Below are positions 2,697 to 44,481 of a DNA stretch of 64,000 nt, in pieces. Made by a program: the position numbers and the translations under genes. The notes under the pieces are model-generated. The model saw only the letters and a program-made list of their open reading frames with translations, had not been told where the DNA came from and searched no databases. The DNA lies in the NCBI RefSeq assembly GCF_019969685.1, contig NZ_JAHXYZ010000001.1, positions 1,240,001 through 1,304,000 on the forward strand, in the 5' to 3' direction. Source of the DNA: Microbacterium sp. EST19A (GTDB taxonomy: Bacteria > Actinomycetota > Actinomycetes > Actinomycetales > Microbacteriaceae). Numbering within the stretch: the stretch's first letter is position 1; the number at the start of each line of letters is the position of its first letter.

Positions 2697-3149
2697 CTAC
2701 TTGGCGGCGACGACCTGCAGCGTGATGACTGCGGTCACGTCGTCGTGCAGACGAACGGTGGCCTCGTGGTCACCCGTCGCCTTGATCGGCGAGGTGATGT
2801 GCACCTTGCGCTTGTCGATCGCACCGAGACCGGCAGCCGCGACAGCGTCGGCGACGTGCTCGGTCTTGACCGAACCGAAGAGGCGACCGGACGTGCCCGC
2901 CTTGACGGCGAGACGGACCTTGGTGCCCTCGAGAGCGTTCTTCAGTGCGACAGCGTCGTCACGATCGTGGATCGCGCGTGCCTGACGCGCGGCCTGGATC
3001 GAAGCGACCTGCTTTTCGCCACCGCGGGTCCACGCCGTAGCGAAGCCCTGCGGGATGAGGAAGTTGCGGGCGTACCCGTTCTTGACCTCGACGACGTCTC
3101 CGGCGCTACCCAGCCCGGCGACCTCGTTCGTGAGAATCAGCTTTGCCAT
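2697..3149 (-). CDS. rplI: 50S ribosomal protein L9
   Basis: 150 residues, the standard length for bL9, which binds domain V of 23S rRNA and bridges the L1-stalk base. The N-terminal domain is clear: [20 protein letters not shown] and [15 protein letters not shown], with the Gly/Lys-rich L9 signature, followed by the long connecting helix and C-terminal domain ([20 protein letters not shown]). Last gene of the conserved rpsF-ssb-rpsR-rplI operon, 11 bp after rpsR and followed by a strong stem-loop. Confidence 0.98.
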
Positions 3150-3160
3150 CTCGATACCCC

Positions 3161-3415
3161 TTACCGGCCGGCGCCAGCGTAGGGCAGGAGCGCCATTTCG
3201 CGCGCGTTCTTGATCGCCGTGGCGATCAGACGCTGCTCCTGCACCGAGACACCGGTGATACGACGGGCACGGATCTTGCCGCGCTCCGAGACGAACTTGC
3301 GGAGGGTGGCGACATCCTTGTAATCGATGACACCGACCCGGATGGACTTCGCGGGAGCGGTGGGCTTGCCACCCTTCCGCGGCTTGCGGCGGTCGCCGCT
3401 CGACTTTCCAGCCAT
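3161..3415 (-). CDS. rpsR: 30S ribosomal protein S18
   Basis: 84 residues, typical of bS18, which pairs with S6 on the 30S platform. Recognised by [36 protein letters not shown] and [16 protein letters not shown], the conserved core. The basic N-terminus ([16 protein letters not shown]) is the actinobacterial form. I see no CxxC zinc motif, so this is the cysteine-free version. It lies between ssb (58 bp upstream) and rplI. Confidence 0.98.
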
Positions 3416-3473
3416 TGGTTTTCCTTAATGATGAGCGGATGCCGTGCCCGAGGGCACCGGATCCAGAAGTTGT

Positions 3474-3995
3474 CTAGAAGGGAGTGTCGTCGCCGAAGCT
3501 GCCCGGAGTGCTCCAGGCATCCGCGCTGGTCGACGAGCCGGGCGTGGACCACGGCTCTTCCGACACCTGCTGCGCGGGACGGGACTGACCGCCGCCACCG
3601 GCACCGCCAGCACCACCGGCACCGCCGGTCGATGCCGCACGGGTGACCTGCGCGGTCGCGTACCGGAGCGAGGGGCCGATCTCGTCGACCTCCAGCTCGA
3701 TCGCGGTGCGCTGGTTACCCTCGCGGTCCTGGTAGGAGCGCTGACGCAGACGGCCCTGCGCCATGACGCGCATGCCCTTCGTCAGTGAACCCGCCACGTG
3801 CTCGGCGAACTCGCGCCACACGGACGCACGGAGGAACAGCGCGTCGCCGTCCTTCCACTCGTTCGCGGCACGATCGAAGTTCCGAGGCGTCGATGCGATG
3901 GTGAAGTTCGCCACCGGCAGCCCGTTCTGCGTGTACCGCAGCTCGGGGTCGGCCGTGAGGTTGCCCACAACGGTGATGACGGTTTCGCCGGCCAT
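3474..3995 (-). CDS. ssb: Single-stranded DNA-binding protein
   Basis: 173 residues. The N-terminal OB fold runs to about residue 115 ([80 protein letters not shown]). A flexible Gly/Ala-rich linker follows, with [14 protein letters not shown], and the protein ends in the acidic tip DDTPF that recruits replication and repair proteins. It binds single-stranded DNA as a tetramer. It sits 5 bp after rpsF, so expression is tied to the ribosomal operon as in most actinobacteria. Confidence 0.97.
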
Positions 3996-4000
3996 GGCGC

Positions 4001-4369
4001 TTACGCCTTCGCAGCCTTGGCGGCCTTGCGGGCAGCCTTCTCTTCGGTGCGCTTGGCCTCGAATGCGACCATCGCCTGAGCCTCTTCCGAGCGGAGGACC
4101 TTGGTGCGCATGATCTGCTCGTTCAGCTTCAGCTGACGGTCGAGCTCCTGCGTGGCCTCGCTGGTGGCGGTGAAGTTGACGACGGCGTAGATGCCCTCGT
4201 TCTTCTTCTGGATCTCGTAAGCCAGACGGCGCTTACCCCAGATGTCGACCTTGTCGATCGAGCCACCATCGTTGGTGATGACCTTCAGGAACTTGTCGAG
4301 CGTAGGGGCTACCTGGCGCTCGTCGATCTCGGGGGTCAGAATGACCATGAGTTCGTACTGGTGCGTCAC
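4001..4369 (-). CDS. rpsF: 30S ribosomal protein S6
   Basis: 122 residues. bS6 ferredoxin-like fold with [38 protein letters not shown] and [11 protein letters not shown] Lys/Ala-rich tail ([17 protein letters not shown]) extends beyond the short bacterial form. The start is GTG at 4369, chosen because a strong AAGGAGGTGG site lies just upstream. First gene of the ribosomal/ssb operon. A hairpin in its leader (4396-4418) could be the target of S6:S18 autoregulation, known in other bacteria. Confidence 0.97.
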
Positions 4370-4503: not shown

Positions 4504-5499
4504 TCACCCCGCGACGACCTCGGCGACCGTGCGTCCGGCCAGCGAGGGGATGCCGAGACCGGTGAGGCGGATGCCGTCGGCCTCCAGCCCCTCCGGGATC
4601 CAGTCCTCGCCGAACAGCACCGCCGCCGCCGCACCGGCGAGCGCGGGCAGCGACGCGGCATTCCGCGGCTGCGCGAGCGCCCCGAGCAGGAGGTCGTCGG
4701 CGCTGGCGGCGGTCGCCACGTGCGCGAGCAGGAAGCCGAACGTCTCGGGTGCCGCGATCGGGTAGCTGTAGACGAAGTCGCCGACCTGCGTGCTCAAGCG
4801 TCGCGCGCGGTCCATCGGTCCCTTCGCCTCGGCCGCCACGCGCAGCGACGACTCGGCCATCCGGCGGCTCCAGGTGTCGTCCGGCAGCTGCGCGACCGCC
4901 AGCCCCACGGCATCCGCGGCGGAGGCACCGTCGATCAGCGCGCCGAACAGCGCCGCCGAGGCCCGTGCGCACCACACGCCGTCGAGCGAGTGGGTGATCG
5001 CGGCATCCGCCTCGGCCGCGTCGACGGCACCGGCCGACCCGTGCACGGCGACCGCGGCGAGCGCGCGCACGGTCGCGATGTCGTCGAAGTAGTGCGCGTT
5101 GTCGTGGCCGGACTGGGGCGGCTCGGCTCCCTTCCGCAGGTTCTGCAGGGCGAGCTTCGTGCCGATGCGGACGCGCAGTCCGCTGTCGGGATCGGCCTCG
5201 AGTTCGGCGAGCTCGCGCCACTCCGTGAGGCCGAGGTCGCGCGCATGCTGCCGCGCCGAGAAGGCGAACCACTCGAGGTTCTCCCCCGGTCCCGGGTGCA
5301 GCACGCTCGGCGGAGCCGCGTGCGTGAACGGCCGTGGCACGGTGGTGGTGCGGTCGTCGTCGCCGAGCTTGGCGAGGATGCGCACGCGGTTGACGCGCTT
5401 CGGCGGCAGGGCGTACACGCGGAAGTCGGCGTTCATCGGCGAGCCGGCCTCGCCGGCGGTGATGCCCCGGGTGAAGAGCTCGATCAGGGGGGTGGTCAT
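4504..5499 (-). CDS. ADP-ribosylglycohydrolase-family paralogue D, probably inactive
   Basis: 331 residues. It aligns along its length with the next gene (5496-6491): LQNLRKGAEPPQSG here matches IDNLRHGIRPPLTG there, and ALAQPRNAASLPALAG matches AVNMGRDADTTAAIAG. All three hallmarks of the family are lost. There is no GDAxG loop, the DDT metal motif is replaced by ENL (about residues 73-75), and the C-terminal D-x-D metal ligands are replaced in RNAAS (about 279-283). It is therefore probably a non-catalytic partner, a binding protein, or an enzyme with altered chemistry. The start is ATG at 5499, which overlaps the stop of the upstream paralogue (ATGA). Last gene of the operon. Confidence 0.75.
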   Translation of the reverse strand: MTTPLIELFTRGITAGEAGSPMNADFRVYALPPKRVNRVRILAKLGDDDRTTTVPRPFTHAAPPSVLHPGPGENLEWFAFSARQHARDLGLTEWRELAELEADPDSGLRVRIGTKLALQNLRKGAEPPQSGHDNAHYFDDIATVRALAAVAVHGSAGAVDAAEADAAITHSLDGVWCARASAALFGALIDGASAADAVGLAVAQLPDDTWSRRMAESSLRVAAEAKGPMDRARRLSTQVGDFVYSYPIAAPETFGFLLAHVATAASADDLLLGALAQPRNAASLPALAGAAAAVLFGEDWIPEGLEADGIRLTGLGIPSLAGRTVAEVVAG

Positions 5500-6491
5500 G
5501 CGCGCGCCTCCTCGACGATGCGGGTCAGGGTGTCGGCGGCGTCCAGGGGGTGGATGCCGGCCATCGAGCGGATGCACGATCCGGCGACGGGGCGGAGTCC
5601 GGCGACCCACTCGTCCGGCAGGTCGTCGATGCCGGAGATCGCGCCGCCGATGCAGCCGGCGATGGCCGCGGTCGTGTCGGCGTCGCGGCCCATGTTAACG
5701 GCGAAGAGGATGCTGTCGGCCGCGCGCCCCTCGGCGTGCAGCACCGAGGCCATCGCCAGCCCGACGGCTTCGGGCGCGAGGTCGGCCCAGAAGTAGTCGG
5801 CGACGGCGAGACGGTCGTGCAGCGCCAGGGCGAGTGCGTCGTCGTCGAGCCCCGAGTGCACGAGGTCGCGGGCGTCGCGCAGGTTGCGGGCGGTCCAGCT
5901 GTCGGCCGGGATCGCCGCGAGTCCCGCCTCGTAGCAGGCGGCGGCATCCGCTCCGGTGAGCGCGGTGGTGACGGCGACCGCCACGACGACGCCCGCCCAG
6001 ATGCCCTCGGTGGTGTGGCTCACGGCGCCGTCGGCCTCGGCCAGACGTCGGGCGAGGTCGACGTCGCCGTCGGCGACGATCCCGAGCGGGCTGACGCGCA
6101 TCGCGAGCCCGTCGCTCCACCCGTGCATGGTGTCTCCGGTGAGCGGCGGACGGATGCCGTGGCGCAGGTTGTCGATCGCGGCCATCTCGCTGAAGCCGCC
6201 GCCTTTGAAGTCGTCGGCCTGCGGCAGCACGTCTTCGATCCAGGTCTGCATGAAATCGTCGGCGGTGGCGCCGGTGCCGACCCGCTGCACGGTCTTCGCC
6301 GTCAGCAGCGCGTACTCGGTGTCGTCGCTGCCGGCGGGCTCCGGGTCGAGGTAGCCGGTCACCCGGCCGTGGGCCGCCTGGATCTCTGCGGCGGAGAAGC
6401 CCTCGACCGGCCGCCCGATCGCGTCGCCGATCGCGAGGCCGGCGAGCGACCCTCGGGCTCGGTCCTGCAGGGTCGGCGTGGGAGAAGTCAT
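5496..6491 (-). CDS. ADP-ribosylglycohydrolase-family protein (paralogue C)
   Basis: 331 residues with complete catalytic motifs: GSLAGLAIGDAIGRPVEGF (GDAIG at 22-26), GSDDTEYALL (DDT at 56-58) and NMGRDADTTAAIAG (RDAD at 269-272). The last two hold two divalent metals in DraG/ARH enzymes, which cleave the N- or O-glycosidic bond between ribose and an acceptor. The native substrate cannot be read from sequence. Because it is co-expressed with a sugar importer, a small imported riboside or glycoside is more likely than ADP-ribosylated protein (inference). The start at 6491 overlaps the stop of paralogue B by 4 nt. Confidence 0.88.
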   Translation of the reverse strand: MTSPTPTLQDRARGSLAGLAIGDAIGRPVEGFSAAEIQAAHGRVTGYLDPEPAGSDDTEYALLTAKTVQRVGTGATADDFMQTWIEDVLPQADDFKGGGFSEMAAIDNLRHGIRPPLTGDTMHGWSDGLAMRVSPLGIVADGDVDLARRLAEADGAVSHTTEGIWAGVVVAVAVTTALTGADAAACYEAGLAAIPADSWTARNLRDARDLVHSGLDDDALALALHDRLAVADYFWADLAPEAVGLAMASVLHAEGRAADSILFAVNMGRDADTTAAIAGCIGGAISGIDDLPDEWVAGLRPVAGSCIRSMAGIHPLDAADTLTRIVEEARA

Positions 6492-7870
6492 GAACGTCCT
6501 TGTCTCTCGGGGGTGAGTCCGTGCGTCGGGAGGAGCGCTGCGGTGCGACGGGCGAGGTCGTCGATGGCGACGCCGTCGAGACCGGGGAGGCTCGTCGTGA
6601 TGCGGTTCTGCAGCGGGTCGGTGAAGTGCGCCGGCAGCAGCTCGAAACCGGCGAGGCCGCCGAGCACCGAGCCGACGGTCGCACCGGCCGAGTCGGTGTC
6701 CCAGCCGGCGATCACGGCCAGCGGCACCCCGCGGGTGAAGTCGCCGCCGCTGCGGGCGAGCGCGAACGCGGTGAGTGCCGCGTTGTTGATGGTGTGCACC
6801 CAGTGCAGGTGACCGTAGGCGGCATGCAGCTCGTCGATCGCCGCCGCGTCGTCGAGGTCTCCTCGGCCGAGCTCGGCGCCGTGCGCGATCGCCGCCGCGA
6901 GTTCGCTGCCCGCGGGGACGGCGGTCGCGGCGAGATCGAGCACCTCGTCGACGGATGCCGCGACCAGCGAGGCCGAGGTCAGCGCCGCCGCCCACATCGC
7001 ACCCCAGAGACCGTTGCGGGCGTGGCTGAGGCGGGCATCCGTCCAGGCCATGCGCGCGGCCTCGGCGATGTCGCCCGGGTTGATCCAGCCGTAGACATCG
7101 GTGCGGATGAGGGCGCCGATCCACTCGCGGAACGGATTGCGCACCCGCGCGGCCTCATCGGGGCGGTAGCCGTCGAGCAGGTTCCGGTACGCGATGCGCT
7201 CGGCCGTGAACGTGCGCCCGGCCGGGAGGTCGGCCAGCCAGGCCTGCGCGATGTCGTCGGTCGTGAATCCGCGGCCCGCGGTCTCGAGCACGCGCAGGTT
7301 CAGCAGCGGGTAGTTGAGGTCATCGTCCTCCGGCATCCCGTCGATGTTCTCGACCAGGGAGTTCACCGATGACCGGCGGTTCCACGGCCACCTCGCGGCC
7401 ACGTCGGCCGGCAGGCCCTGCGCGGTGAAGTAGTCGGTCAGCGGCCAGCGGCCGGTGGCCCGCAGGATCTCCTCGATGCCTTCGCGCGGGATCTTCTCGA
7501 CGGGCTTGCCCCACAGGCATCCGGCGGATCGTCCCGCCCACGCCCCGTGCAGACGGTCGAGCAGCGCGGCGTCTCCCGGCGGCGCGATCGGCGCCGGGAT
7601 GCCGTCGAGCAGGGCCCGCACGTCTCGCCACGTCGTCGGATCGGGCACAGGAGCCGCGACGTCGTCGAGCTCGACGAGCAGCGCGCGGGCGAGGGCCCGC
7701 AGCTCGTCGGACGCGGCATCCGGCGTCGCCCCTCCCCGCACCGGATCGAGGTCGCCGCCGGCGGCCCGCCAGCGCTCCGTGATCGCATCGACGTCCTTGC
7801 CCTCGGCGCGCGCCTGCACGATCTCGTGCGGCAGCAGGTCCTCGGGTTGCGCCCAGGTCAGGCGCATCAC
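6488..7870 (-). CDS. ADP-ribosylglycohydrolase-family protein (paralogue B, N-terminally extended)
   Basis: 460 residues, about 100 longer than its neighbours because of an N-terminal extension (MMRLTWAQPEDLLPHEIVQA onward). In the extension a charged ARAEGKDVDAITERW helix precedes the fold proper at about residue 107. Metal motifs are present: MPEDDDLNYPLL (181-184) and IAGWDTDSAGATVGSVLGG (WDTD at 390-393). The usual GDAxG loop is changed to SAGCLWGKPVE. The family removes ribosyl groups using two metals. The start overlaps the end of paralogue A by 4 nt. The altered loop and extension suggest a different substrate from A and C. Confidence 0.86.
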   Translation of the reverse strand: MMRLTWAQPEDLLPHEIVQARAEGKDVDAITERWRAAGGDLDPVRGGATPDAASDELRALARALLVELDDVAAPVPDPTTWRDVRALLDGIPAPIAPPGDAALLDRLHGAWAGRSAGCLWGKPVEKIPREGIEEILRATGRWPLTDYFTAQGLPADVAARWPWNRRSSVNSLVENIDGMPEDDDLNYPLLNLRVLETAGRGFTTDDIAQAWLADLPAGRTFTAERIAYRNLLDGYRPDEAARVRNPFREWIGALIRTDVYGWINPGDIAEAARMAWTDARLSHARNGLWGAMWAAALTSASLVAASVDEVLDLAATAVPAGSELAAAIAHGAELGRGDLDDAAAIDELHAAYGHLHWVHTINNAALTAFALARSGGDFTRGVPLAVIAGWDTDSAGATVGSVLGGLAGFELLPAHFTDPLQNRITTSLPGLDGVAIDDLARRTAALLPTHGLTPERQGRS

Positions 7871-9015
7871 GCCACCCGCAGGGCCGCGACCCGTCGGACG
7901 TCGGCCTCGGCGCGCTCGGCATCCTTCTCCATGATCTCCACGGCGACATCGGACAGCAGCGCGGCGTACTCGTCGAAGTCGACGCGGCTGGCCTCGGCGA
8001 TCGTGTCGAAGATCTCGGTCGGGATGACCTCGCGCCCCCCGAGCCCTGCGGCGATGCTGCCCGCCATCGACGCGATCGAGTCGGAGTCGCGGCCGTAGTT
8101 GACGGCCCCGAGCACTGTCGGCAGGAACGCGCCGTCGTGTGCGACGAGGAAGCCCAGGGCGACCGGGAGCTCTTCGATGGACTTGGTGCGCGAGGGCACC
8201 CTGGCGTCCATGGCCGGCTCGCGGTACGCGTCGCCGACGGTGTCGAACGGACGAATCGCGTCGCGCAGCGCGAGGCCGATCGCGTCGTCGTCGGCATCCG
8301 CAGGAAGGGCGCGTGCCGCGTCGACGACGGCGCGGATCGCCGCGGCGGTGCCGTCGCGGGCCACACGCAGCACCGCATCGATCACCGAGTCGACGGTGGC
8401 ATCGAGGGCGACGGATGCCGCGACCCCGGCCGCGAACACCCCCGCGGCCTCGCGTCCATAGCTGGACTGGTGGGCTCCGGCGACGTCGATCGCCTCGGCG
8501 TACGCCGCCTCCGGGTTGCCGGCGTTCACGATGCCGACCGGCGCCATGTACATCGCGGCGCCGCAGTTGACGACGTTGCCGACGCCCGCCTCACGCGGAT
8601 CCGCGTGGCCGTACTGCAGGCGGGCGACCAGCCACTTCTCGGCGAGGAAGATGCGCTGCAGCAGGATCGACTCGCGCTCCAGCTCCGGGATCCAGCGGAT
8701 CTCGGTCTGCAGCAGCGGCACGAGCAGCTCGGCGACCGTGAAGGCGTCGATGTGGTCGCGCCGCTCGGCGTACACCCGGATCAGGGCCTGCGTCATCAGG
8801 GTGTCGTCCGTGATGTGCCCGTCGCCCTTGTGGTACGGGCTGACCGGCCGCGCGGTCTGCCAGTCCAGGTGATAGGGCGGCACGATCCCGGTGATGGGAC
8901 CCCCGTACCGCTCCTTGATCTTCTCCGGACTGAACCCCTCGGCCGCCCCGCCCAGGGCGTCGCCGATGGCCGACCCTGCGAGCACGGCCGCCGTGCGTTC
9001 CCGAATCCAGCTCAT
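7867..9015 (-). CDS. ADP-ribosylglycohydrolase-family protein (paralogue A)
   Basis: 382 residues. Intact motifs: LAGSAIGDALGGAAEGF (GDALG at 18-22), GDGHITDDTLMTQALI (DDT at 70-72) and AVNYGRDSDSIASMAG (RDSD at 310-313), the di-metal ligands of DraG/ARH hydrolases. An insert between the first two motifs (PPYHLDWQTARPVSPYH) is longer than in paralogue C. First of four consecutive paralogues, separated from the binding-protein gene by a strong intercistronic hairpin. GAGAGGA precedes the ATG as ribosome site. Substrate unknown; the importer context suggests a small glycoside. Confidence 0.88.
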   Translation of the reverse strand: MSWIRERTAAVLAGSAIGDALGGAAEGFSPEKIKERYGGPITGIVPPYHLDWQTARPVSPYHKGDGHITDDTLMTQALIRVYAERRDHIDAFTVAELLVPLLQTEIRWIPELERESILLQRIFLAEKWLVARLQYGHADPREAGVGNVVNCGAAMYMAPVGIVNAGNPEAAYAEAIDVAGAHQSSYGREAAGVFAAGVAASVALDATVDSVIDAVLRVARDGTAAAIRAVVDAARALPADADDDAIGLALRDAIRPFDTVGDAYREPAMDARVPSRTKSIEELPVALGFLVAHDGAFLPTVLGAVNYGRDSDSIASMAGSIAAGLGGREVIPTEIFDTIAEASRVDFDEYAALLSDVAVEIMEKDAERAEADVRRVAALRVA

Positions 9016-9032
9016 GCCATTCCTCTCCTAGA

Positions 9033-9063
9033 GGTGGGGCGGATGACCGGCATCCGCCCCACC
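9033..9063 (-). promoter_or_regulatory. Intercistronic stem-loop between binding protein and hydrolases
   Basis: GGTGGGGCGGATG and CATCCGCCCCACC form a perfect 13-bp stem with a 5-nt loop (ACCGG). It lies directly after the solute-binding-protein stop and before the ribosome site of paralogue A. No T-run follows. Likely roles are protecting the 3' end of the abundant binding-protein mRNA or partial termination. Confidence 0.6.
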
Positions 9064-9067
9064 GTCG

Positions 9068-10360
9068 TCAACCGTTGACCTGTGCCCAGCCGTCGTCGAG
9101 CTCGGAGGTCAGGCCCTTGTCGTCGATCTCGCCGCCCAGGAACTTCTGGAACGCCGGGGTCGCGACCGTGTCCTTCCAGCGGACGAATCCGTTCGCCTGC
9201 AGGAACACGGGGCCTTCGAGGCCCTCGGCCGACTTCACGATCTCGGGCCAGCCGTTCTGGTCGGCCGTCTCCTCGGCGAGCGCCTCGCGGGCCGACACCG
9301 TCGTCGGGATGAGTCCGTCGGCGATGTTCATCTTCACGAGGTTGTCGGTCTGCATGAAGTAGTCGAGGAACTTGCCGGCCTGCTCCGTGTAGGCCGAGTC
9401 GACGTTGATCGACAGCGTCTGCGGGTTGGCGGCCTGGACCGCTCCCTCGGAGCCGGCGAGCGGCGGCAGCACGATCCAGTCCATGTCGGCCGGAGCGTCG
9501 GTGGCGATGTTGGCCACCTGGTACGAGCCCTGCACGGTCATGGCGGCCTTGCCGGCGTAGAACGTGGCGAGCACGTCGGCACCCGACTGCGTGACGCCGA
9601 TCGGATCGACCGAGCCCTCTTCGATCATGTCGCGCACGCGGTTCGGCACCTCGAGGTCGGCATCCTTGACGTCGACCTTCATGTCGTCGCCCTTGCCGGT
9701 GAAGTACTCCGAGCCGAAGCCCATCCCGAGGCTCATGAACGCGGCGGTCGGGCTCTTCAGGCCCCAGGTGATGCCGTGCACGTCGCCGGATGTCGTCGCC
9801 TTCGCGATGTCGGCGAGCTCGTCCCACGTCATCGAGTCGCCGGTCGGGATCTCGACCCCTGCCGACTCGAGCAGCGTTTTGTTCGCGAACACGACGTAGG
9901 TCTGGAGCTCGGTGGGAGCGCCGATGATCTGGTCGTCGACGGTGACCGACTCGAGCACACCGGGGTCGATGTCGTCGATCGTCTCTTTGCTCAGCAGATC
10001 GCTCAGGTCGGCCAGGTAGCCGTCACGGGCGAAGGGCACGATGCCGAGCACCTCGTAGTGGATGATGTCGGGCGCGACCTCGCCGGCGAACTGCGTCGTC
10101 AGCTTGTCGTCGAGGCTGTCGGTCGGCGCCTGCACGATCTCGACCTGGATGTCGGGGTTGTCGTCGTTCCAGGCGTCGACGATCTCCTTCGTGGCCTGGA
10201 TCGCCGCCGGCTGGTCGGAGAACGACTGGAAGGTGATCGATACGGGTTCGCCGTCGCCGGTGTCCTCGGGGGTGTCGCCGCCCGAGGAGCACGATGCGAG
10301 GGTCAGCGCCGTCACCGCCGCTGCGGCGAGCGCGATGGACGCGCGATGAAGCTTCTTCAC
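9068..10360 (-). CDS. Sugar ABC transporter solute-binding lipoprotein
   Basis: 430 residues. The lipoprotein signal has basic VKKLHR, a hydrophobic stretch and the lipobox LTLASC with Cys at residue 24, then an SSGGDTPEDTGDGE linker. The rest fits family 1 extracellular binding proteins of carbohydrate importers (ITFQSFSDQPAAIQATKEIV, FYAGKAAMTVQGSYQ, VFANKTLLESAGVEIPTG). GTG at 10360 is preferred: AAAGAGG lies just upstream, and the nearby ATG, which is out of frame, meets a stop after two codons. It follows the two permeases and precedes four ADP-ribosylglycohydrolase paralogues. No ATPase gene is in the operon, so a shared MsiK-type ATPase is likely. Confidence 0.92.
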   Translation of the reverse strand: MKKLHRASIALAAAAVTALTLASCSSGGDTPEDTGDGEPVSITFQSFSDQPAAIQATKEIVDAWNDDNPDIQVEIVQAPTDSLDDKLTTQFAGEVAPDIIHYEVLGIVPFARDGYLADLSDLLSKETIDDIDPGVLESVTVDDQIIGAPTELQTYVVFANKTLLESAGVEIPTGDSMTWDELADIAKATTSGDVHGITWGLKSPTAAFMSLGMGFGSEYFTGKGDDMKVDVKDADLEVPNRVRDMIEEGSVDPIGVTQSGADVLATFYAGKAAMTVQGSYQVANIATDAPADMDWIVLPPLAGSEGAVQAANPQTLSINVDSAYTEQAGKFLDYFMQTDNLVKMNIADGLIPTTVSAREALAEETADQNGWPEIVKSAEGLEGPVFLQANGFVRWKDTVATPAFQKFLGGEIDDKGLTSELDDGWAQVNG

Positions 10361-10407
10361 TTCATACCTCTTTCTCTTAGTGGTGGGGGATTGCGGGATC
10401 TGTGGGC

Positions 10408-11313
10408 TCAGCCCTTCACCGCGCCCGAGAGCAGGCCGGTGGCCAGCCGCTTCTGCAGGAGGGTGAAGAACACGATGCTCGGGATGCTGGAGAGCAGGGC
10501 GCCGGCGGCGAGCGGGCCGACCGCGACCTTGCCCTCGCCGCCGACGAACGTGCTGAGGGCGATCGGGAGGGTGTAGTTCTCGGGCGACTGCAGCAGCACC
10601 AGGGCGAAGAAGAACTCGTTGTAGGCCGACACGAAGCTGAACATCGCCGTCGCGACGAGTCCGGGCATCAGCAGCGGGAACACGACGCGCTGCAGCGTTC
10701 GTGCCTTGTTCGCGCCGTCGATCGACGCGGCCTCCTCGATGTCGAAGGGGATCGCGGCGACGTAGCCCTGCAGCATCCACAGCGAGAAAGGCAGCGTGTA
10801 GACCGAGTACACCGCGATGAGCCCGAGCAGCGAGTCGACGAGGCCGGCGGACCGCAGGATGAAGAACAGCGGGATGACGACGAGGATGACCGGGAAGATC
10901 TGGCTGACCAGGATGTAGCCGACGCCGATGGAGCGGAGCTTGCCCTGGTAGCGCGCCATCACGTACGCGCCGGGGATCGACAGCAGGGTGACGATGATCG
11001 TGGTCGCGACGGCGACGATGAGGCTGTTGCCGGCCGCGCGGATGAGTCCCTGGCGCTCGATGGCGGCCACGAAGTTGTCGATCGTGGGCTGCAGCGGGAT
11101 CAGGTTGACGGCGAGCGAGTTGATCTCGGCGGACGACTTGAACGCGGTGGAGATGAGCCATAGCAGCGGGAAGCCGAGGAAGACGAGGAACCCCGCGAGC
11201 GCCAGGTACTGCAGTGTGCGCACCAGCGGCGTGGTGCGCACGCCGCTCCGTGCGCGCTGCTTCTTCTTCGTGCCCTGCGTGACCATGGCCCGGGTCGCGG
11301 TGCTCTCGCTCAT
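10408..11313 (-). CDS. Carbohydrate ABC transporter permease (MalG type)
   Basis: 301 residues with about six membrane helices, the first at YLALAGFLVFLGFPLLWLIS. The cytoplasmic EAA loop that docks the ATPase is clear (EEAASIDGANKARTLQRVVF, then PLLMPGL). The family works as the second half of a MalFG-like heterodimer for mono- or oligosaccharide uptake. The start ATG at 11313 overlaps the stop of the MalF-type gene (ATGA). It lies 47 bp before the binding-protein gene. Confidence 0.93.
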   Translation of the reverse strand: MSESTATRAMVTQGTKKKQRARSGVRTTPLVRTLQYLALAGFLVFLGFPLLWLISTAFKSSAEINSLAVNLIPLQPTIDNFVAAIERQGLIRAAGNSLIVAVATTIIVTLLSIPGAYVMARYQGKLRSIGVGYILVSQIFPVILVVIPLFFILRSAGLVDSLLGLIAVYSVYTLPFSLWMLQGYVAAIPFDIEEAASIDGANKARTLQRVVFPLLMPGLVATAMFSFVSAYNEFFFALVLLQSPENYTLPIALSTFVGGEGKVAVGPLAAGALLSSIPSIVFFTLLQKRLATGLLSGAVKG

Positions 11314-12260
11314 CGTGCGGTCCTCTCCGGTCGCAGCTGACGCCACAGGGCGATCACCAGGATCACGACGAGGAAGATGACGATCACGTCGCCCATCGCC
11401 GCGGCGCCTCCGGTGTTGCGGGTCTTGAAGGCCTCGATGTAGGTGAAGAGCATCGGCAGCATCGTGCGTCCGCCCGGGCCGCCCTCGGTCATGACGTAGA
11501 CGATGCCGAAGGAGTTGAAGTTCCAGATGAAGCTCAGGCTCGCGATCGAGAAGATCACCGGTCGCAGCGCCGGCAGGGTGACGCTGATGAATCGGCGCCA
11601 GGTGCTCGCCCCGTCGACGGCCGCCGCTTCGAGCAGCTCGCCCGGCACCTGCTGCAGCCCGGCCAGCAGCACGACCGTGTTCTGCGGCATGCCGACCCAG
11701 ACCCCCACGAGGATGACCGCGGGGAGGGCGAGACCGAAGTCGCCGAGCCAGTTGATGTTCTGGGGTCCGCCGAGCGATTCGATCAGCCAGTTCAGCGGAC
11801 CGTTGGTCGGCGAGTAGATCATCTGCCACATGACGGCGACGACCACCGGCGGCATGGCCCACGGGATGAGCGCGAGCACGCGGGTGATGCCGCGGAAGCG
11901 CAGGTCGGTGTTCAGCAGCAGGGCGAGGCAGAGTCCGCCGATCAGCTGCAGAGCCGTCACGACGACGGCCCAGATCATGCCGATGCCGAACGACTGCCAG
12001 AACTGCGTGTCGGAGCCCAGCTTGATGAAGTTCTCGAAGCCGATGAACTGCGTCTCGTGGTGACGGGCGAGGCGGGAGTCGGTGAAGGCGGTCGCCACGC
12101 CGATGAAGAGCGGCACGACGCTGAGCACGAGGATCGGGATCAGCGTCGGGACGACGAGGCCGATCGCCTCGTTGCGCCGGGAGCGGGCGAGGCCGCCCTT
12201 CCGTGGTGCGCTCTTCGCGGCGGTCTTCGGGGTCGTGTTCTTCGACGCGGTGATGCTCAT
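11310..12260 (-). CDS. Carbohydrate ABC transporter permease (MalF type)
   Basis: 316 residues. A basic, Lys/Ala-rich cytoplasmic N-terminus (TASKNTTPKTAAKSAPRKGG) is followed by six predicted helices (LVVPTLIPILVLSVVPLFIG first) and the EAA loop (LLEAAAVDGASTWRRFISVT, then LPALRP). It forms the permease with the MalG-type partner. The start at 12260 overlaps the end of the LacI-type gene by 4 nt, so regulator and transporter are translationally coupled. Confidence 0.93.
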   Translation of the reverse strand: MSITASKNTTPKTAAKSAPRKGGLARSRRNEAIGLVVPTLIPILVLSVVPLFIGVATAFTDSRLARHHETQFIGFENFIKLGSDTQFWQSFGIGMIWAVVVTALQLIGGLCLALLLNTDLRFRGITRVLALIPWAMPPVVVAVMWQMIYSPTNGPLNWLIESLGGPQNINWLGDFGLALPAVILVGVWVGMPQNTVVLLAGLQQVPGELLEAAAVDGASTWRRFISVTLPALRPVIFSIASLSFIWNFNSFGIVYVMTEGGPGGRTMLPMLFTYIEAFKTRNTGGAAAMGDVIVIFLVVILVIALWRQLRPERTAR

Positions 12261-13279
12261 GCGGACTCTCCGATCGTCGAGGCGCGCACCACGAGGGTGG
12301 CCTCCACCGTCTCGCGCCGGGTCGGCCGGGACGGATCGGCGAAGCGCTCGCTCAGCATGCGGGCGGCGATTCGGCCGCGGCGCTCGGACTGGAGGGAGAC
12401 CGAGGTCAGCGGCGGGCTGTACAGCGCCGCGAGGTCGGTGTCGTCGATGCCGGTCACGGCGATGTCCTCCGGCACGCGCAGGCCCTGACGGCGCGCGGCG
12501 TTGATGGCGCCGATCGCGATGAGGTCGTTGGCGCACACGATCGCGTCGATCTGCACGCCGCTCTCGCGGGTCGCGGCGAGCAGGCGCTCGGCGGCTTCTA
12601 CTCCCGAGCCGACGGTGAAGTCCGCGGCGGTGACCTGGAGGGCCTCGCTGCGCGCGAGTCCGTGGCGCTCGACCGCGGCCGTGAACCCGGCGCGTCGGGC
12701 GGCACCGGGGTTCGTGTTCCCGGGTCCGTTGATCACGCCGATGTGGGTGCGGCCGATGTCGACGAGGTGATCCACGACCATCCCGACGGCGACGGCCGAG
12801 TCGACGAAGACGCTGTCGATGCTGAGCTCGGAGTGCAGGGTGCCGATGACGACCACCGGCACGACGGTGTCGGCGAGAGCCTGACGCAGCGCGGGGGTGA
12901 CGCGCAGCGGCGAGATGATCAGCCCGTCGCCGGCGCCCATGCTGAGCATGCGGACGAGTTCGACGGTCTGATCGGGACGCCGTCCGGTCGCCGAGACGCT
13001 GATGCGGGTCGTCTCGCCCAGCTCCTCCTCGATCGCGCGCAGCATCTGCACGTAGTTCGGGTTGCCGATGTCATCGACGGCGAAGACCACCTGCGGGTGT
13101 CCACCGAGGCGCAGCGACCGCGCGGTCGCGTCGGGGAGGTAGCCGATGCGCTTGGCGGCCGTGCGGACCTTGCGCACCATCTCCGGGCTCGCGGAACGAC
13201 CGGTGAGAGCACGCGATGCGGAGGCCAGCGAGACGCCGGCGGCAGCCGCGACCTGGTGAAGTGTCGGCTTCGTCCCCAT
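12257..13279 (-). CDS. LacI family transcriptional regulator
   Basis: 340 residues. An N-terminal LacI helix-turn-helix with hinge (TLHQVAAAAGVSLASASRAL, KRIGYLPDATARSLR) is followed by a periplasmic-binding-like sugar domain (VVFAVDDIGNPNYVQMLRAI, AIVCANDLIAIGAINAARRQ, VTGIDDTDLAALYSPPLTSV). First gene of the importer/hydrolase operon, followed by MalF with a 4-nt overlap. Two identical TGGAAACGTTTCCA palindromes sit 17-55 bp upstream of its start, so it probably represses its own operon until the transported glycoside or a product binds. Confidence 0.95.
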   Translation of the reverse strand: MGTKPTLHQVAAAAGVSLASASRALTGRSASPEMVRKVRTAAKRIGYLPDATARSLRLGGHPQVVFAVDDIGNPNYVQMLRAIEEELGETTRISVSATGRRPDQTVELVRMLSMGAGDGLIISPLRVTPALRQALADTVVPVVVIGTLHSELSIDSVFVDSAVAVGMVVDHLVDIGRTHIGVINGPGNTNPGAARRAGFTAAVERHGLARSEALQVTAADFTVGSGVEAAERLLAATRESGVQIDAIVCANDLIAIGAINAARRQGLRVPEDIAVTGIDDTDLAALYSPPLTSVSLQSERRGRIAARMLSERFADPSRPTRRETVEATLVVRASTIGESA

Positions 13280-13295
13280 GGTTCTCCTCGTCGAG

Positions 13296-13309
13296 TGGAA
13301 ACGTTTCCA
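13296..13309. promoter_or_regulatory. LacI-type operator, proximal copy
   Basis: TGGAAACGTTTCCA, a perfect 14-bp palindrome with the central CG typical of LacI-family operators. It lies 17 bp upstream of the lacI-type start. Confidence 0.85.
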
Positions 13310-13320
13310 GCATCCGGATG

Positions 13321-13334
13321 TGGAAACGTTTCCA
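13321..13334. promoter_or_regulatory. LacI-type operator, distal copy
   Basis: An identical 14-bp palindrome, TGGAAACGTTTCCA, centred 25 bp from the proximal copy. Both copies also share a preceding G. The pair probably holds two repressor dimers over the operon promoter. Confidence 0.85.
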
Positions 13335-13385: not shown

Positions 13386-14186
13386 TCAAGACCCTGCGTC
13401 GGCCGCGCGCAGGATCCTCACGGCGCGACCGCGCATCGCAGGATCGACCATCTCGCCCGAGGCCAGGGTCGACACACCACCTGCCTCGAGCGCCGCGAGC
13501 ACCTCCTCCGCCCACGCCCGCTCGGCGGCGGACGGGGCGAACACCGCGGCGATGATCGGAAGCTGCGCGGGGTGCACCGCCATCCGCCCGAACAGGCCGA
13601 GCTCGGCCATCCGGCGGGTGTCGGCGCGCAGACCCTCCTCATCGCGGATCGCGGGATACACCGACCCCATCGGCGCGGGAAGACCAGCGGCCCGCGCCGC
13701 GAACAGCACGGTGAGCCGGGCGTGGTCGAGCATCCGCTCTCCTCCCCCGATCTCGCTCCGTAGGTCGCTCTCGCCGAGCGCCAGCGCGGTGACGGCGGGA
13801 TGATCCGCGATCGGCAGGGCGTTCAGCACGCCGCGCGCCGACTCGAGCAGGGCGATCACGGGGCGTCCGGGCGCGAGTGCGGCGGCGTGGTCGACATCGG
13901 CCGCGGTCTCGACCTTCGGAAGACGGATGCCGACGTCGACGGGGAGACCGGCGACCGCACGCAGATCCTCGTCGTCGCCCGCGTTGACGCGCACCTGCGC
14001 GGCCGCGGTGCCTCGGCCCGGGCCGTTCAGCCACTCCACCACCGCGTCGCGCGCGGCCCGCTTGCGGTCGGGCGCGACGGCATCCTCGAGGTCGAAGACC
14101 ACCAGGTCGGCGCCGCTGCCCTCCGCCGAGACGAACCGATCGGCGCGGTCGCCGGGCACGTAGAGGCCGGTGCGGTGGCCCGACAT
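13386..14186 (-). CDS. HpcH/HpaI aldolase / citrate lyase beta-like protein
   Basis: 266 residues. CitE-like TIM barrel: RTGLYVPGDRADRF, LVVFDLEDAVAPDRK (the Asp/Glu metal pair), AQVRVNAGD, IRLPKVETAADVD and IALLESARGVLN with the Glu metal ligand, then AVHPAQLPII. These enzymes cleave (or form) malyl-, citramalyl- or related acyl-CoA esters. Its start overlaps the stop of the CoA-transferase gene by 1 nt (TGATG), so the two probably act in sequence: activation to a CoA thioester, then C-C cleavage. No hydratase gene lies beside them, so the acid substrate is unclear. Confidence 0.88.
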   Translation of the reverse strand: MSGHRTGLYVPGDRADRFVSAEGSGADLVVFDLEDAVAPDRKRAARDAVVEWLNGPGRGTAAAQVRVNAGDDEDLRAVAGLPVDVGIRLPKVETAADVDHAAALAPGRPVIALLESARGVLNALPIADHPAVTALALGESDLRSEIGGGERMLDHARLTVLFAARAAGLPAPMGSVYPAIRDEEGLRADTRRMAELGLFGRMAVHPAQLPIIAAVFAPSAAERAWAEEVLAALEAGGVSTLASGEMVDPAMRGRAVRILRAADAGS

Positions 14187-15403
14187 CAGACTGCTCCCGA
14201 TGCATGCAGCTCAGCGATCTCGGCATCCGTGAATCCGGCGTCGCGCAGCACGTCGTCGGTGTCGGCACCGTGCCGGCGTCCGGCCCAGCGGATCGATCCC
14301 GGCGTGCGCGACAGGCGGAACAGCACGTTCTGCATCGCCACGTCGCCGAGCTCGTCGTCTACGACGCGCACCACGGTGCCCAGCGCGCGGTACTGCGGAT
14401 CCTCGACCACGCCGCGCACGTCGTAGACGGGGGCGATCGCGGCCGACGCCGCCTCGAACGCGGCAACCACCTCGTCGGCGTCGTGGGCTCCGATCCACGA
14501 CTGCACCGCGTCATCGAGCTCGTCGGCGTGCAGCGCGCGCTCATGACCCGAGCGGAACCAGGGTTCGTCGATCAGCTCGGCACGACCGACCACCGCCATC
14601 ACGCGCTCGGCGATCGACTGCGAACTCGTCGAGACCGCCAGCCACACGTCGTCACGCGAGCGGTAGACGTTGCGCGGCGCGTTGTTGACCGAGCGGTTGC
14701 CGGTGCGCGGCTGCACGGTGCCGAGCTGATCCCAGGCCGTGATCTGCCCGCCGAGCAGCATGAGGATCGGCTCGATGATCGCCATGTCGACGACCTGCCC
14801 CCGGCCATCGCGCTCGGCACTGCGCAGCGCCGCCATCACGGCGTACGAGGTGGCGAGGGCGGCGATGCCGTCGGCCAGTCCGAACGGCGGGAGCGTGGGC
14901 GGACCGTCGGGGTCGCCGGTCAGCGCCGCGAATCCGCTCATCGCCTCGGCCAGGCTGCCGAAACCCGGGCGCGACGAATAGGGTCCGAACTGCCCGAAGG
15001 CCGTGACCCGGGCGAGCACGAGGCGCGGGTTCGCCTCGTGGAGGCGCTCCGGCGACAGACCCCAGCGCTCGAGGGTGCCGGGGCGGAAGTTCTCGATCAT
15101 GACGTCGGCATCCGCCACCAGCCGCAGCAGCACCTCGGCGCCGGCGGCGGAGCTCAGGTCGACGGTCGCCGTGCGCTTGTTGCGGCCGAGCGTCTTCCAC
15201 CACAGGTTGACGCCGTCCTTCTGCGGGCCGTGTCCGCGCGAGGCGTCCGGACGCGTCGGATGCTCGATCTTGATCACGTCGGCGCCGAAGTCGCCGAGGA
15301 ACGTCGCCGCGAGCGGCCCCGCGAACAGCGTGGACACGTCGAGCACCCGCACACCCTCGAGCGGAGGCGGTGGAACAGTTCTCAGATCATCCTGGTCCGA
15401 CAC
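14186..15403 (-). CDS. CaiB/BaiF family (family III) CoA-transferase
   Basis: 405 residues. Family III signature: LDVSTLFAGPLAATFLGDFG with ADVIKIEHP, DVMIENFRPGTLERWG, and GLADGIAALATSYAVMAALR with the likely catalytic Asp at 178. The family moves CoA between acids through an aspartyl-CoA thioester. The start is GTG at 15403; there is no ribosome site, but TATCAT lies 6 nt upstream, the leaderless pattern. It is coupled to the CitE-like lyase by a 1-nt overlap. It begins 54 bp downstream of the siderophore permease stop but probably has its own promoter. Confidence 0.92.
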   Translation of the reverse strand: MSDQDDLRTVPPPPLEGVRVLDVSTLFAGPLAATFLGDFGADVIKIEHPTRPDASRGHGPQKDGVNLWWKTLGRNKRTATVDLSSAAGAEVLLRLVADADVMIENFRPGTLERWGLSPERLHEANPRLVLARVTAFGQFGPYSSRPGFGSLAEAMSGFAALTGDPDGPPTLPPFGLADGIAALATSYAVMAALRSAERDGRGQVVDMAIIEPILMLLGGQITAWDQLGTVQPRTGNRSVNNAPRNVYRSRDDVWLAVSTSSQSIAERVMAVVGRAELIDEPWFRSGHERALHADELDDAVQSWIGAHDADEVVAAFEAASAAIAPVYDVRGVVEDPQYRALGTVVRVVDDELGDVAMQNVLFRLSRTPGSIRWAGRRHGADTDDVLRDAGFTDAEIAELHASGAV

Positions 15404-15457: not shown

Positions 15458-16480
15458 TCAGAAGCGCCGCCGCGCCGTCCGCACCACGAGGAAGATCAGG
15501 TAGACGCCGCCGAGCACGAGCGTGACGACGCCGACCGGGAGCGCCCGCCCGGGGATGCCGTTCTGCCCGATGATGTCGGCCAGCGACAGCAGCACGGCTC
15601 CGGTGAGGGCGGTGGCGACGAGGTGGAGCGGCCCGTTCTTCACGATCAGCTTCGCGAGATGCGGCGCCGCGAGGGCGACGAAGGCGATGGGTCCGATCGC
15701 CGCGGTGACGACGCCGCAGAGCCCCACGGCGATCGCGATGAGCCCGACCTTGGTGAGGTTCATCCGGCCGCCGAGGCTCGTGCCGATGTCGTCGCCCAGC
15801 TCGATGAGCCACAGTCCTCGGCGCGCGAAGCCCAGGAGCACCATCAGCGCCGTCACGACGATGATCGGCACTGCGGCCTGCGCCCACCCGACGCCGTTCA
15901 GCGATCCGGCCCCCCAGATCGCGGCCGAGATCGCCACCTCGAGCCGTGCGCGCAGCAGCATCCACGCGTTCAGCGCCGCGAGGATCGCGCTCACGCCGAT
16001 GCCGACGATGACGATGCGGTAGCCGAGCGCGCCGCGACCGGCGACGAGGGCGGCGACGAGGGCCGCGGTCGCGAAGCCGCCGAGCACCGCGGCGATCGCA
16101 ACCGCGACGCCCGACGAGCCGCCGGTGGTCATCACGATGAGAGCGCCCGTGTACGCGCCGGTGGTCAGGCCGATCACGTCGGGGCTGCCGAGCGGGTTGC
16201 GGGTGATCGTCTGGAACACGGTGCCGGCGAGGGCGAGGGCCGCCCCGAAGAAGACCGCGGCCAGCGCCCGGGGCAGCCGCCAGTCCACCACGACCATGCG
16301 GATGCCGCCCTGCGTCTCGAACAGCGCCTGGATGACGCGGATCGGCGACAGCACGGTGTCGCCGATCGAGAGGCTCGCGAGGAACGACGCCACCAGCACC
16401 GCGACGAGGATCGCCATCGCCCCGCGCGCCCGACGGCTGAGCGGACGGTGCCGGATCTCGGCCCGGGGTGCGGCGCTCAC
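15458..16480 (-). CDS. FecCD-type iron-siderophore ABC permease
   Basis: 340 residues with about nine to ten membrane helices, starting at AILVAVLVASFLASLSIGD. BtuC/FecCD features include WRLPRALAAVFFGAALALAG, ITRNPLGSPDVIGLTTGAY and the ATPase-contact loop GLCGVVTAAIGPIAFVALAA with PHLAK. It forms a heterodimeric channel with the gene just upstream, overlapping it by 4 nt. No ATP-binding subunit follows; the next gene is a CoA-transferase. The ATPase must be supplied from elsewhere. Confidence 0.93.
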   Translation of the reverse strand: MSAAPRAEIRHRPLSRRARGAMAILVAVLVASFLASLSIGDTVLSPIRVIQALFETQGGIRMVVVDWRLPRALAAVFFGAALALAGTVFQTITRNPLGSPDVIGLTTGAYTGALIVMTTGGSSGVAVAIAAVLGGFATAALVAALVAGRGALGYRIVIVGIGVSAILAALNAWMLLRARLEVAISAAIWGAGSLNGVGWAQAAVPIIVVTALMVLLGFARRGLWLIELGDDIGTSLGGRMNLTKVGLIAIAVGLCGVVTAAIGPIAFVALAAPHLAKLIVKNGPLHLVATALTGAVLLSLADIIGQNGIPGRALPVGVVTLVLGGVYLIFLVVRTARRRF

Positions 16481-17508
16481 AGCTGCACCGGATTCCTGCG
16501 GCGGCCGATCCAGATGAGGAACGGAGCGGCGACGAAGGCCATGACGATGCCCACCGGCACCTCCTGCGGCGCGATGATGACGCGTCCGACCACGTCGCCG
16601 AGCACCACGACGATCGCCCCGATCACGGCCGCGAGCGGCACGATCGCCTTCTGCGACGACCCGACGATCCCGCGCGCGATGTGCGGAGCGGCGAGTCCGA
16701 GGAACGCGACGGGACCGGCGACGGCGGTCGCGGTGCCGGCGAGGAGGGTGACGGAGGCGACGGCTCCGGTGCGGAGCGGTCCGATGCGCACGCCGAGCGA
16801 TGCGGCCGTGTCGTCGCCCAGGGCGAGCACGTCGAGGCTGCGCGTGATCGCGAAGGCCAGCACGAGGCCGACGGCGATCGTGGGGCCGGCGACCGTGAGG
16901 ATCGACAGATCTCGACCCGCGAGCGCCCCCGACTCCCAGCTGCGCATCTGCAGGAAGGCGTGCGGGTTGAGCAGCACGAGCGCGGTCGTGAGTCCGCCGA
17001 GCACCGCGGCGAGCGCGACGCCGGCGAGCACGAGGGTGACCGGGCTGCCACCGCCCGCCGCCCCGAGGAGCACGACGCCGATGGTCGTGACCAGCGCCCC
17101 GACGAGCGCGAAGATCATCAGATGCGGGAAATCCCGGATGCCGAGGGTCGCGACCGCGATGGCCACGGCGACCGAGGCGCCGGCGTTCACCCCGAGGATG
17201 CCGGGATCGGCGAGCGCGTTGCGGGTGAGTCCCTGCATCACGGCACCCGCGGCTCCGAGGGCCAGACCCACGACGATGCCGAACACCGTGCGCGGGACGC
17301 GCGACTCCCGCACCACCAGCTGCAGGTCGCTTCCGTCGAAATCCGTGATCGCGCGGATCGCGGTGTCGAGACCCACGAGCTTGGTGCCGACCGTGAGGCC
17401 GATGCCCGCCGCCACGACCAGTGCAGCGAGGGCGAGCACGACGACGAGCGCGATCCGCCCCGGAGATGTCCGGGACGGATCGCGTCGCGTGCGTGCGACA
17501 GTGCTCAT
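16477..17508 (-). CDS. FecCD-type iron-siderophore ABC permease
   Basis: 343 residues, the first of two permeases. Multiple helices (IALVVVLALAALVVAAGIGL first) with family segments ESRVPRTVFGIVVGLALGAA, LTRNALADPGILGVNAGA and the coupling loop VAGPVAFLGLAAPHIARGIV. The start lies 10 bp after the binding-protein gene, and the stop overlaps the second permease by 4 nt. Together they import ferric siderophores across the membrane. Confidence 0.93.
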   Translation of the reverse strand: MSTVARTRRDPSRTSPGRIALVVVLALAALVVAAGIGLTVGTKLVGLDTAIRAITDFDGSDLQLVVRESRVPRTVFGIVVGLALGAAGAVMQGLTRNALADPGILGVNAGASVAVAIAVATLGIRDFPHLMIFALVGALVTTIGVVLLGAAGGGSPVTLVLAGVALAAVLGGLTTALVLLNPHAFLQMRSWESGALAGRDLSILTVAGPTIAVGLVLAFAITRSLDVLALGDDTAASLGVRIGPLRTGAVASVTLLAGTATAVAGPVAFLGLAAPHIARGIVGSSQKAIVPLAAVIGAIVVVLGDVVGRVIIAPQEVPVGIVMAFVAAPFLIWIGRRRNPVQL

Positions 17509-17518
17509 ACGACCGAGG

Positions 17519-18562: not shown

Positions 18563-18582
18563 GGCGAAACCTGTTCGTCGAA

Positions 18583-18603
18583 GTAAGGGTTGCCTCAGCT
18601 TAC
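18583..18603. promoter_or_regulatory. DtxR/IdeR-like iron box
   Basis: GTAAG and CTTAC arms flank an 11-nt core. The central 19 bases (18584-18602) match 13 of 19 positions of the classic DtxR consensus when aligned by eye. Its position just upstream of the siderophore-binding-protein gene fits iron-dependent repression. Confidence 0.6.
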
Positions 18604-18749
18604 CCAGTGGGCGGCCGTTCTCGCATCCGCGGATCACGATGGGGAGCCGTGCCCACGCGCGGATGTCGGAGGACCCGCCGAACATTTGGCATGCTGGAGG
18701 GCGTGCCCCGATGACCGTCGTCGGGGCATACGACTGAAGGGGGGACGCC

Positions 18750-39605: not shown

Positions 39606-39899
39606 ATGTCTGTACGCACCCCCGTCCCCACTGGCTCCGAGACACACGTCGCCCACGAGGTCGATGCACCGTCCGCCGCCCCCGAGCTGACCCACCATCT
39701 GATCGACTTCGATCGCTATGTCATCAGCCGCAACGGACCCATCGGCTACGTCGAGGTCGTCGCCCCGGTCTTCGTCTGCTACCTGGGTCACCCCTACGCG
39801 CAGGCCGAGGAGATCGCCCAGGTCCTCGAGTTCGAGCGCGCCGTGCAGATCGTCGCCGAACGGGCCACCCCCTCGCCGCGGCCTAAGCTCGCTCCATGA
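39606..39899 (+). CDS. Small protein of unknown function, coupled to glgX
   Basis: 97 residues. A loose N-terminus (SVRTPVPTGSETHVAHEVDA) is followed by a compact part (LTHHLIDFDRYVISRNGPIG, YVEVVAPVFVCYLGHPYAQA, EEIAQVLEFERAVQIVAERA). No family is recognised. CAGGAGG precedes the ATG, a strong ribosome site. Its TGA overlaps the glgX ATG (ATGA), so the two are translationally coupled. It could be a regulator or partner of the glycogen-trehalose enzymes. A separate -10 element for glgX lies inside its last codons. Confidence 0.75.
   Translation: MSVRTPVPTGSETHVAHEVDAPSAAPELTHHLIDFDRYVISRNGPIGYVEVVAPVFVCYLGHPYAQAEEIAQVLEFERAVQIVAERATPSPRPKLAP
39884..39889 (+). promoter_or_regulatory. Internal -10 element before glgX
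   Basis: TAAGCT, 6 nt before the glgX ATG at 39896, inside the end of the upstream coding region. glgX may have a second, leaderless transcript. Confidence 0.4.
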
Positions 39900-44480: not shown

Positions 44481-44481
44481 G

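Follow-up and report, generated by a model that had tools for sequence, protein, structure and literature searches.

A conserved actinobacterial uptake cluster with four ADP-ribosylglycohydrolase paralogues, proposed to serve the catabolism of a ribose-containing conjugate

Genes and operators at the locus

We analysed a stretch of 64,000 nucleotides from the genome of Microbacterium sp. EST19A (contig NZ_JAHXYZ010000001.1, positions 1,240,001 to 1,304,000; hereafter the window), in which a LacI-type regulator, components of a sugar ATP-binding cassette (ABC) transporter and four consecutive genes of the ADP-ribosylglycohydrolase (ARH) family, designated ARH_A to ARH_D (A to D for short), form an operon. 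A preliminary description of the sequence had proposed an operon for glycoside uptake, with the ARH paralogues standing in the usual place of glycosidases and hydrolysing an imported riboside or similar glycoside, either stepwise or as a set of enzymes for several substrates. Open reading frames and profile matches placed all eight genes at the positions claimed there, on the minus strand, and gene order and PF03747 matches agreed with an uptake operon in which ARH genes occupy the glycosidase position. Two features were absent from that description. One is a pair of genes, for a coenzyme A (CoA) transferase and an HpcH/CitE-family lyase, that share the strand of lacI and lie immediately upstream of it; the other is that ARH_D has lost its metal site. 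The features are listed below in window coordinates.

14186..15403, minus strand: CaiB-type (family III) CoA-transferase, 405 residues (Pfam CoA_transf_3, 1.2e-115; alternative start at 15346 possible)
13386..14186, minus strand: HpcH/CitE-family CoA-ester lyase, 266 residues (Pfam HpcH_HpaI, 7.8e-33)
13321..13334, no strand: LacI-type operator, perfect palindrome TGGAAACGTTTCCA (sequence match)
13296..13309, no strand: LacI-type operator, perfect palindrome TGGAAACGTTTCCA (sequence match)
12257..13279, minus strand: LacI-family regulator, 340 residues (profile match)
11310..12260, minus strand: sugar ABC permease 1 (MalF/UgpA type), 316 residues (profile match)
10408..11313, minus strand: sugar ABC permease 2 (MalG type), 301 residues (profile match)
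9068..10360, minus strand: solute-binding lipoprotein (SBP), 430 residues, GTG start (SBP_bac_1, 4.3e-35)
7867..9015, minus strand: ARH_A, 382 residues, metal motifs intact (PF03747, 4.8e-43)
6488..7867, minus strand: ARH_B, 459 (ATG start) or 460 (GTG start) residues, N-terminal extension of about 100 residues, metal motifs intact (PF03747, 1.2e-43)
5496..6491, minus strand: ARH_C, 331 residues, metal motifs intact (PF03747, 4.7e-52)
4504..5499, minus strand: ARH_D, 331 residues, predicted pseudoenzyme with ARH fold and metal site lost (PF03747, 3e-15, profile positions 90-286 only)

Four junctions (lacI/permease 1, permease 1/permease 2, B/C and C/D) had 4-nt overlaps, and A and B overlap by 1 nt or by 4 nt depending on whether the ATG or the GTG start of B is used, which bears out the earlier statement of 4-nt overlaps at most junctions; the SBP gene is flanked by gaps of 47 and 52 nt. 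Both 14-bp palindromes sit between lacI and the upstream lyase gene, and no other site with at most one mismatch was found in the 4.45 Mb genome. The uniqueness of the two operators suggests that the LacI regulator is dedicated to the local cluster. Similar palindromes precede lacI in relatives, according to a scan of 33 loci that had no chance control and in which some of the hits were plain GC-rich matches. The main text of a survey of LacI regulons contains no occurrence of 'ADP-ribosyl' (PMC4052901).

All four ARH proteins exceeded the PF03747 cut-off of 26.2 bits, and a whole-genome search found exactly these four PF03747 genes in the Microbacterium genome. They are old paralogues, mutually 28-31% identical; in a phylogenetic tree A, D and C each formed a single group (support 100, 99 and 94, respectively), with C and D as sisters (90). 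The two Mg ions of ARH3 are bound by Thr76, Asp77, Asp78, Asp314, Asp316 and Thr317 (PMC8141533). These binuclear metal ligands (T/S-D-D and D-x-D-T/S) are kept in A (TDD/DSDS), B (DDD/DTDS, with Asp in the place of Thr76) and C (SDD/DADT), and relatives showed the same pattern with small changes. The state of A was taken from a separate motif reading; the automatic alignment that underlies the table of D sequences shifts the A motif by one column. A predicted model of B reached a predicted local distance difference test score (pLDDT) of 71 and a predicted template modelling score (pTM) of 0.77. Median ratios of nonsynonymous to synonymous substitutions (dN/dS) were 0.105, 0.158, 0.054 and 0.153 for A, B, C and D, respectively; the value for D is based on 28 pairs of eight Microbacterium copies, with a Leifsonia locus (L013) and one with broken frames (L014) left out.

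Recurrence of the cluster in other genomes

A search of public genomes with D returned nine loci (eight in Microbacterium, one in Leifsonia), all with the eight genes in the same order. In one of them (L014, 105-10983, Microbacterium sp. Se63.02b), the frames of the CoA-transferase, lacI, C and D are broken, perhaps through sequencing errors. Related clusters occurred in other Microbacteriaceae, in Nonomuraea and in large actinomycete genomes, and a reduced form was present on Rhizobiales plasmids. Of 296 genomes sampled across the class, 55 matched B at 1e-20 or better. A at 1e-40 was matched by 90 of the 121 genomes of one large genus (g44), by 13 of 199 at the level of the family, in 10 of 78 genera, and by 14 of 396 at the level of the phylum. 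D was rare in its own genus, being present only in G000 and G005 among 35 genomes sampled; what matched weakly in a further genome (G009) proved to be a B-like protein.

We compiled a table of 59 loci, using tblastn with reference sequences from the cluster and counting a gene by chosen identity thresholds within 11 kb of A. The table comprised A (59 loci), B (57), C (48), D (48), a ribokinase-type gene (42), a further protein that we call c8 (23), the CoA-transferase (54), the lyase (54), and LacI with ABC genes (45). Two entries call for care: L046 is the same contig as L006, and L022 ends at a contig edge with an ARH fragment there. Gene order varied (A-B-C-D in the window, C-D-A-B elsewhere), so the linkage is not the mere inheritance of one fragment; Nonomuraea gerenzanensis, for example, has the order LacI-permease 1-permease 2-SBP-C-D-A-B-kinase, with no transferase or lyase within the 25 kb read. 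A chance or single-strain arrangement is ruled out by this recurrence across genomes, in which the four paralogues reappear together in other genera. None of the papers listed by literature searches, which took in few subscription papers, describes the cluster. In one locus of genus g44 (L077, 8706-12893, genome G294), only fragments of A and B stand beside the kinase, transferase, lyase, C and D.

In five of the nine close relatives (L008-L011 and L014), the kinase gene comes directly after D. No such gene was found in the clusters of L006, L007, L012, L013 or the window, whose genome has kinase genes of the ribokinase-type family elsewhere, at best 38% identical. The ribokinase model TIGR02152 was the best NCBIfam match for all 13 kinases scanned (two of them, from L021 and L080, from outside the 59 loci), and four exceeded its cut-off. 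In L021 (6420-8770), from the same genus, a B-like ARH (39% identical to ARH_B) adjoins a nucleoside hydrolase (PF01156), LacI, ABC genes and a ribokinase-type gene.

The window transferase is the counterpart of those in the other clusters: among seven genomes searched, G157, G169, G072 and G339 each hold a single copy that is 65-70% identical to it (69-70% in G072, G169 and G157), and all other matches reach at most 39%. Five loci have no linked transferase; among the four of their genomes that were searched, G157 and G339 carry the 65-70% copy on another contig. The transferase lies nearest to SUGCT, YfdE and formyl-CoA transferases, and the lyase nearest to RipC (135.4 against an equivalog cut-off of 375) and CitE (116.4 against 443.4). 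With both proteins under all equivalog cut-offs, no choice can be made between malate, citramalate and hydroxymethylglutarate (HMG) as the acid.

A plasmid search with A yielded 20 relatives at 42-45% identity from Ensifer, Sinorhizobium, Rhizobium, Agrobacterium, Nitratireductor, Phyllobacterium and Pseudochrobactrum; Nonomuraea and two weak matches came in addition. The rhizobial A sequences included in the tree fall inside its A group. All six rhizobial regions read have LacI, two permeases and an SBP before A (LacI and A in pieces in L085); five have an annotated UgpC ATPase, and five a second ARH gene, of about 700 residues in four and shorter in L085. In the Ensifer region L084, the CoA-ester lyase is followed by a protein of 813 residues (16777-19218) that has no Pfam match at 0.001.

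ARH_D and its relation to ARH_C

The window D carries ENLEW and RNAAS at the two metal motifs. Across 47 aligned D rows (46 genes, that of L029 being in two pieces, and including L072 from outside the 59 loci), the position of ARH3 Asp314 was changed in all 47, and that of Glu41 in 46, with a gap in the remaining row. Loss of the metal ligands was graded. In the 11 Microbacteriaceae rows Asp316 is replaced by Ala, Asp78 by Asn, Ala or Gly and, in nine, Asp77 by Glu, and most of these rows have five of the six ligand positions changed; outside this family, the positions of Asp77, Asp78 and Asp316 are kept in 35 of the 36 rows. In ARH3, the D314A exchange led to the loss of one Mg and to 44 times weaker binding of ADP-ribose (PMC8141533).

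A predicted model of D (pLDDT 78, pTM 0.83; unreliable at residues 23-69, close to the N-terminal metal loop) aligned with ARH3 (7aks) over 265 residues at Z 22.1 and a root-mean-square deviation of 3.4, indicating that the ARH fold is kept. In the structure comparison, entries with the ARH fold scored Z 19.5-22.1 and a pair of ARH-like chains linked to the mitoribosome about 14, while no other chain exceeded 5.4; the best Foldseek E value was 1.1e-4. A chain of the chloroplast Orf2971/Ycf2-FtsHi motor (8xks_Q, 8xqw_G) aligned with the model at Z about 19.5 and so seems to share the ARH fold.

We predict from these changes that D is a conserved, catalytically dead pseudoenzyme; its most plausible role is that of a partner to C without catalytic activity. 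Decay of the gene is ruled out by the median dN/dS of 0.153. With metal ligands lost in all 47 rows and D predicted to be dead, the idea of four hydrolases acting stepwise is probably wrong. The vertebrate ARH pseudoenzyme ADPRHL1 is a comparable case of a conserved ARH-fold paralogue with a lost active site (PMC4990356); D differs from it in being bacterial and in lying inside a metabolic operon, beside an intact sister paralogue.

C and D were confined to the same 48 of the 59 loci, with D only where C occurs. Eleven loci (the window, L006-L014 and L020) had been found through D; among the other 48, 37 have C and D and 11 have neither. The distribution of the pair was related to that of c8, a protein of about 650 residues unrelated to C and D, in which only a C-terminal FGE-sulfatase (formylglycine-enzyme-like) domain matches and whose N-terminal part is, at a guess, a glycosidase-like barrel. 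C-D without c8 was found in 36 loci, both in 12, c8 without C-D in 11 and neither in none; without L046 and L022 the counts were 35, 12, 10 and 0 (Fisher p = 1.5e-5, relatedness ignored), with 12 C-D only and 9 c8 only in the Microbacteriaceae subset. As every locus carries C-D or c8, we infer that the two perform overlapping jobs. In L072 (9046-13528), a divergent C-D pair faces a cluster of LacI, a B-like ARH, ABC genes and a kinase without ARH_A; the same genome also holds the full cluster (L049).

Proposed pathway and alternative explanations

Judging from gene families and neighbourhood, the MalFG-type ABC transporter would import a ribose-containing compound, and a LacI repressor, presumably bound to the two local operators, would control the cluster. 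A and B, metal-dependent by their motifs, and C with its metal-less partner D would cleave the glycosidic bond or bonds. Freed ribose would be converted to ribose 5-phosphate by the ribokinase, which is in the cluster in most relatives; here, the ribokinase-like genes elsewhere in the genome may serve. The freed acid, for which the chemistry of CitE-type lyases is the basis for proposing a 3-hydroxy acid, would be activated by the CaiB-type CoA-transferase, and the HpcH/CitE lyase would split the CoA ester, probably to acetyl-CoA and an oxo compound.

We read the locus as one lineage's form of a catabolic cluster that is widespread, seems not to have been described before and would use a ribose-containing conjugate along these steps (probability roughly 0.55), a reading which would define a class of substrates and not a named compound. 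A ribose-containing substrate is supported by the ribokinase-type gene that belongs to the cluster in 42 of the 59 loci, and the riboside part rests mainly on these kinases, helped by the nucleoside hydrolase beside the B-like ARH in L021. The cluster is real, conserved and wider than first described. As for the earlier interpretation, the uptake operon holds, and the riboside class gains support, limited by the four of 13 kinases that pass the cut-off, while the set of four stepwise hydrolases probably fails. A fuller version, put forward tentatively and at somewhat under even odds, would be a pathway of actinobacteria and rhizobia in which DraG-fold glycosidases cleave an imported conjugate of ribose and a 3-hydroxy acid, the acid passes through the CoA-transferase and the CitE-type lyase, C is complexed with a dead D, and C-D is interchangeable with c8.

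Several observations weigh against the main reading. The window and 16 other loci among the 59 have no linked kinase, nine of the 13 kinases miss the ribokinase cut-off, and MalFG-type transporters are more usual for oligosaccharides than for nucleosides. The best models for LacI (RbsR, GntR and CytR) all scored far below their cut-offs, and neither A nor B has a good match to any solved structure. Two genomes that keep A, C and D count against a strict dependence on the transferase, G005 having no match to it in the whole genome and G708 only a 31% paralogue; the surroundings of the L013 and L096 clusters also showed no transferase. In the six rhizobial regions, transferase and lyase occur in two (L084 and L085, in the latter with the transferase in two pieces) and were not seen in L081, L082 and L083, and a whole ribokinase gene is present in one (L080). 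Finally, co-occurrence is conditional on A, B or D, through which the loci were found.

The absent or low-scoring kinases, together with a transporter and SBP of oligosaccharide type, would also fit a general glycoside-use system in which the ARHs have as substrate a glycoside of some other sugar, or several glycosides, and the PfkB-type kinase takes another pentose or a hexose. We consider this unlikely, though well worth keeping in mind: TIGR02152 is the best model for every kinase scanned, a B-like ARH stands beside a nucleoside hydrolase in L021, and the metal centre of solved ARHs holds the ribose diol (PMC8141533). Much less probable still is that the ARHs remove ADP-ribose from modified proteins or nucleic acids, or salvage it, their location in a sugar operon being secondary. 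Such is the known chemistry of the family (DraG, ARH1, ARH3), and C is the closest of the four to DraG and MJ1187, aligning with both through both motifs; but NCBIfam equivalog scores fall far short of the cut-offs (for C, 59.3 against 337.05 for DraG and 45.6 against 490 for Tri1; lower for A; no match for B and D), and the genes are tightly linked to the transporter, transferase and lyase. A scan of ten neighbouring proteins, with no search made elsewhere in the genome, found no ADP-ribosyltransferase as a partner. Six proteins gave no PADLOC match, which also led us to reject an anti-phage role.

Lying upstream of lacI and outside the main run, the window transferase and lyase might act on a substrate of their own and only accompany the riboside genes, for example under a shared inducer, and G005 and G708 indeed keep ARHs without an orthologous transferase. 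Linkage in 54 of 59 loci despite varied gene order, and again in two rhizobial plasmids, makes this a rather improbable arrangement, and we infer instead that an acid aglycone is processed through CoA. D, for its part, could hydrolyse by some other mechanism, or could be a protein for sensing or binding that has nothing to do with C; with Asp77, Asp78 and Asp316 kept outside Microbacteriaceae, one metal could still bind there. We regard this as doubtful, since the Asp314 position is lost in every row, most Microbacteriaceae rows have lost nearly the whole set of ligands, and D occurs only alongside C in the 59 loci.

The cluster is a combination of a sugar ABC operon, the ARH family and a CoA-transferase and lyase pair, each a component of a kind already known. 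The E. coli operon yegTUV likewise joins a transporter, an ARH and a sugar kinase, with a function likewise unknown, but has a putative nucleoside transporter of the major facilitator superfamily, a GntR-type regulator and a single ARH, and no CoA-transferase or lyase within its three genes (PMC10819704). With DraG, ARH1 and ARH3, the paralogues share the PF03747 family, the binuclear metal motifs (in A, B and C) and, in the model of D, the fold; here, however, three copies with intact motifs and one without stand in a sugar-uptake operon, and A and B are remote from the solved members. Routes for itaconate, citramalate, malate and HMG pair a CoA-transferase with a CitE-like lyase of the same two families, whereas the present pair scores far under the equivalog cut-offs and is joined to glycoside uptake.

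Bacterial ARH-family proteins are mostly named for a protein-modification activity that has been tested in few of them. A neighbourhood conserved in dozens of genomes offers a concrete alternative role, and because it names uptake, ribose phosphorylation, CoA activation and carbon-carbon cleavage, it makes a search for the substrate feasible. The neighbourhood also points to a ribose-bearing compound, so far unrecognised, that soil and plant-associated bacteria can use, and D would be a bacterial instance of a conserved ARH pseudoenzyme for which C is the evident candidate as partner.

Elsewhere in the window, the downstream end of the operon abuts an apparent rplI-rpsR-ssb-rpsF cluster (2697-4369, by reading); the operon is likewise followed by rpsF (and ssb) in L006-L011 and L014, but a search of L012 and L013 did not find these genes. 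A FecCD-type ABC operon with a binding protein lies upstream of the CoA-transferase (15458-18829) and was judged unrelated. Three consecutive plus-strand genes at 39896-46230 resemble, by eye, a trehalose-like set (treX, treY, treZ).

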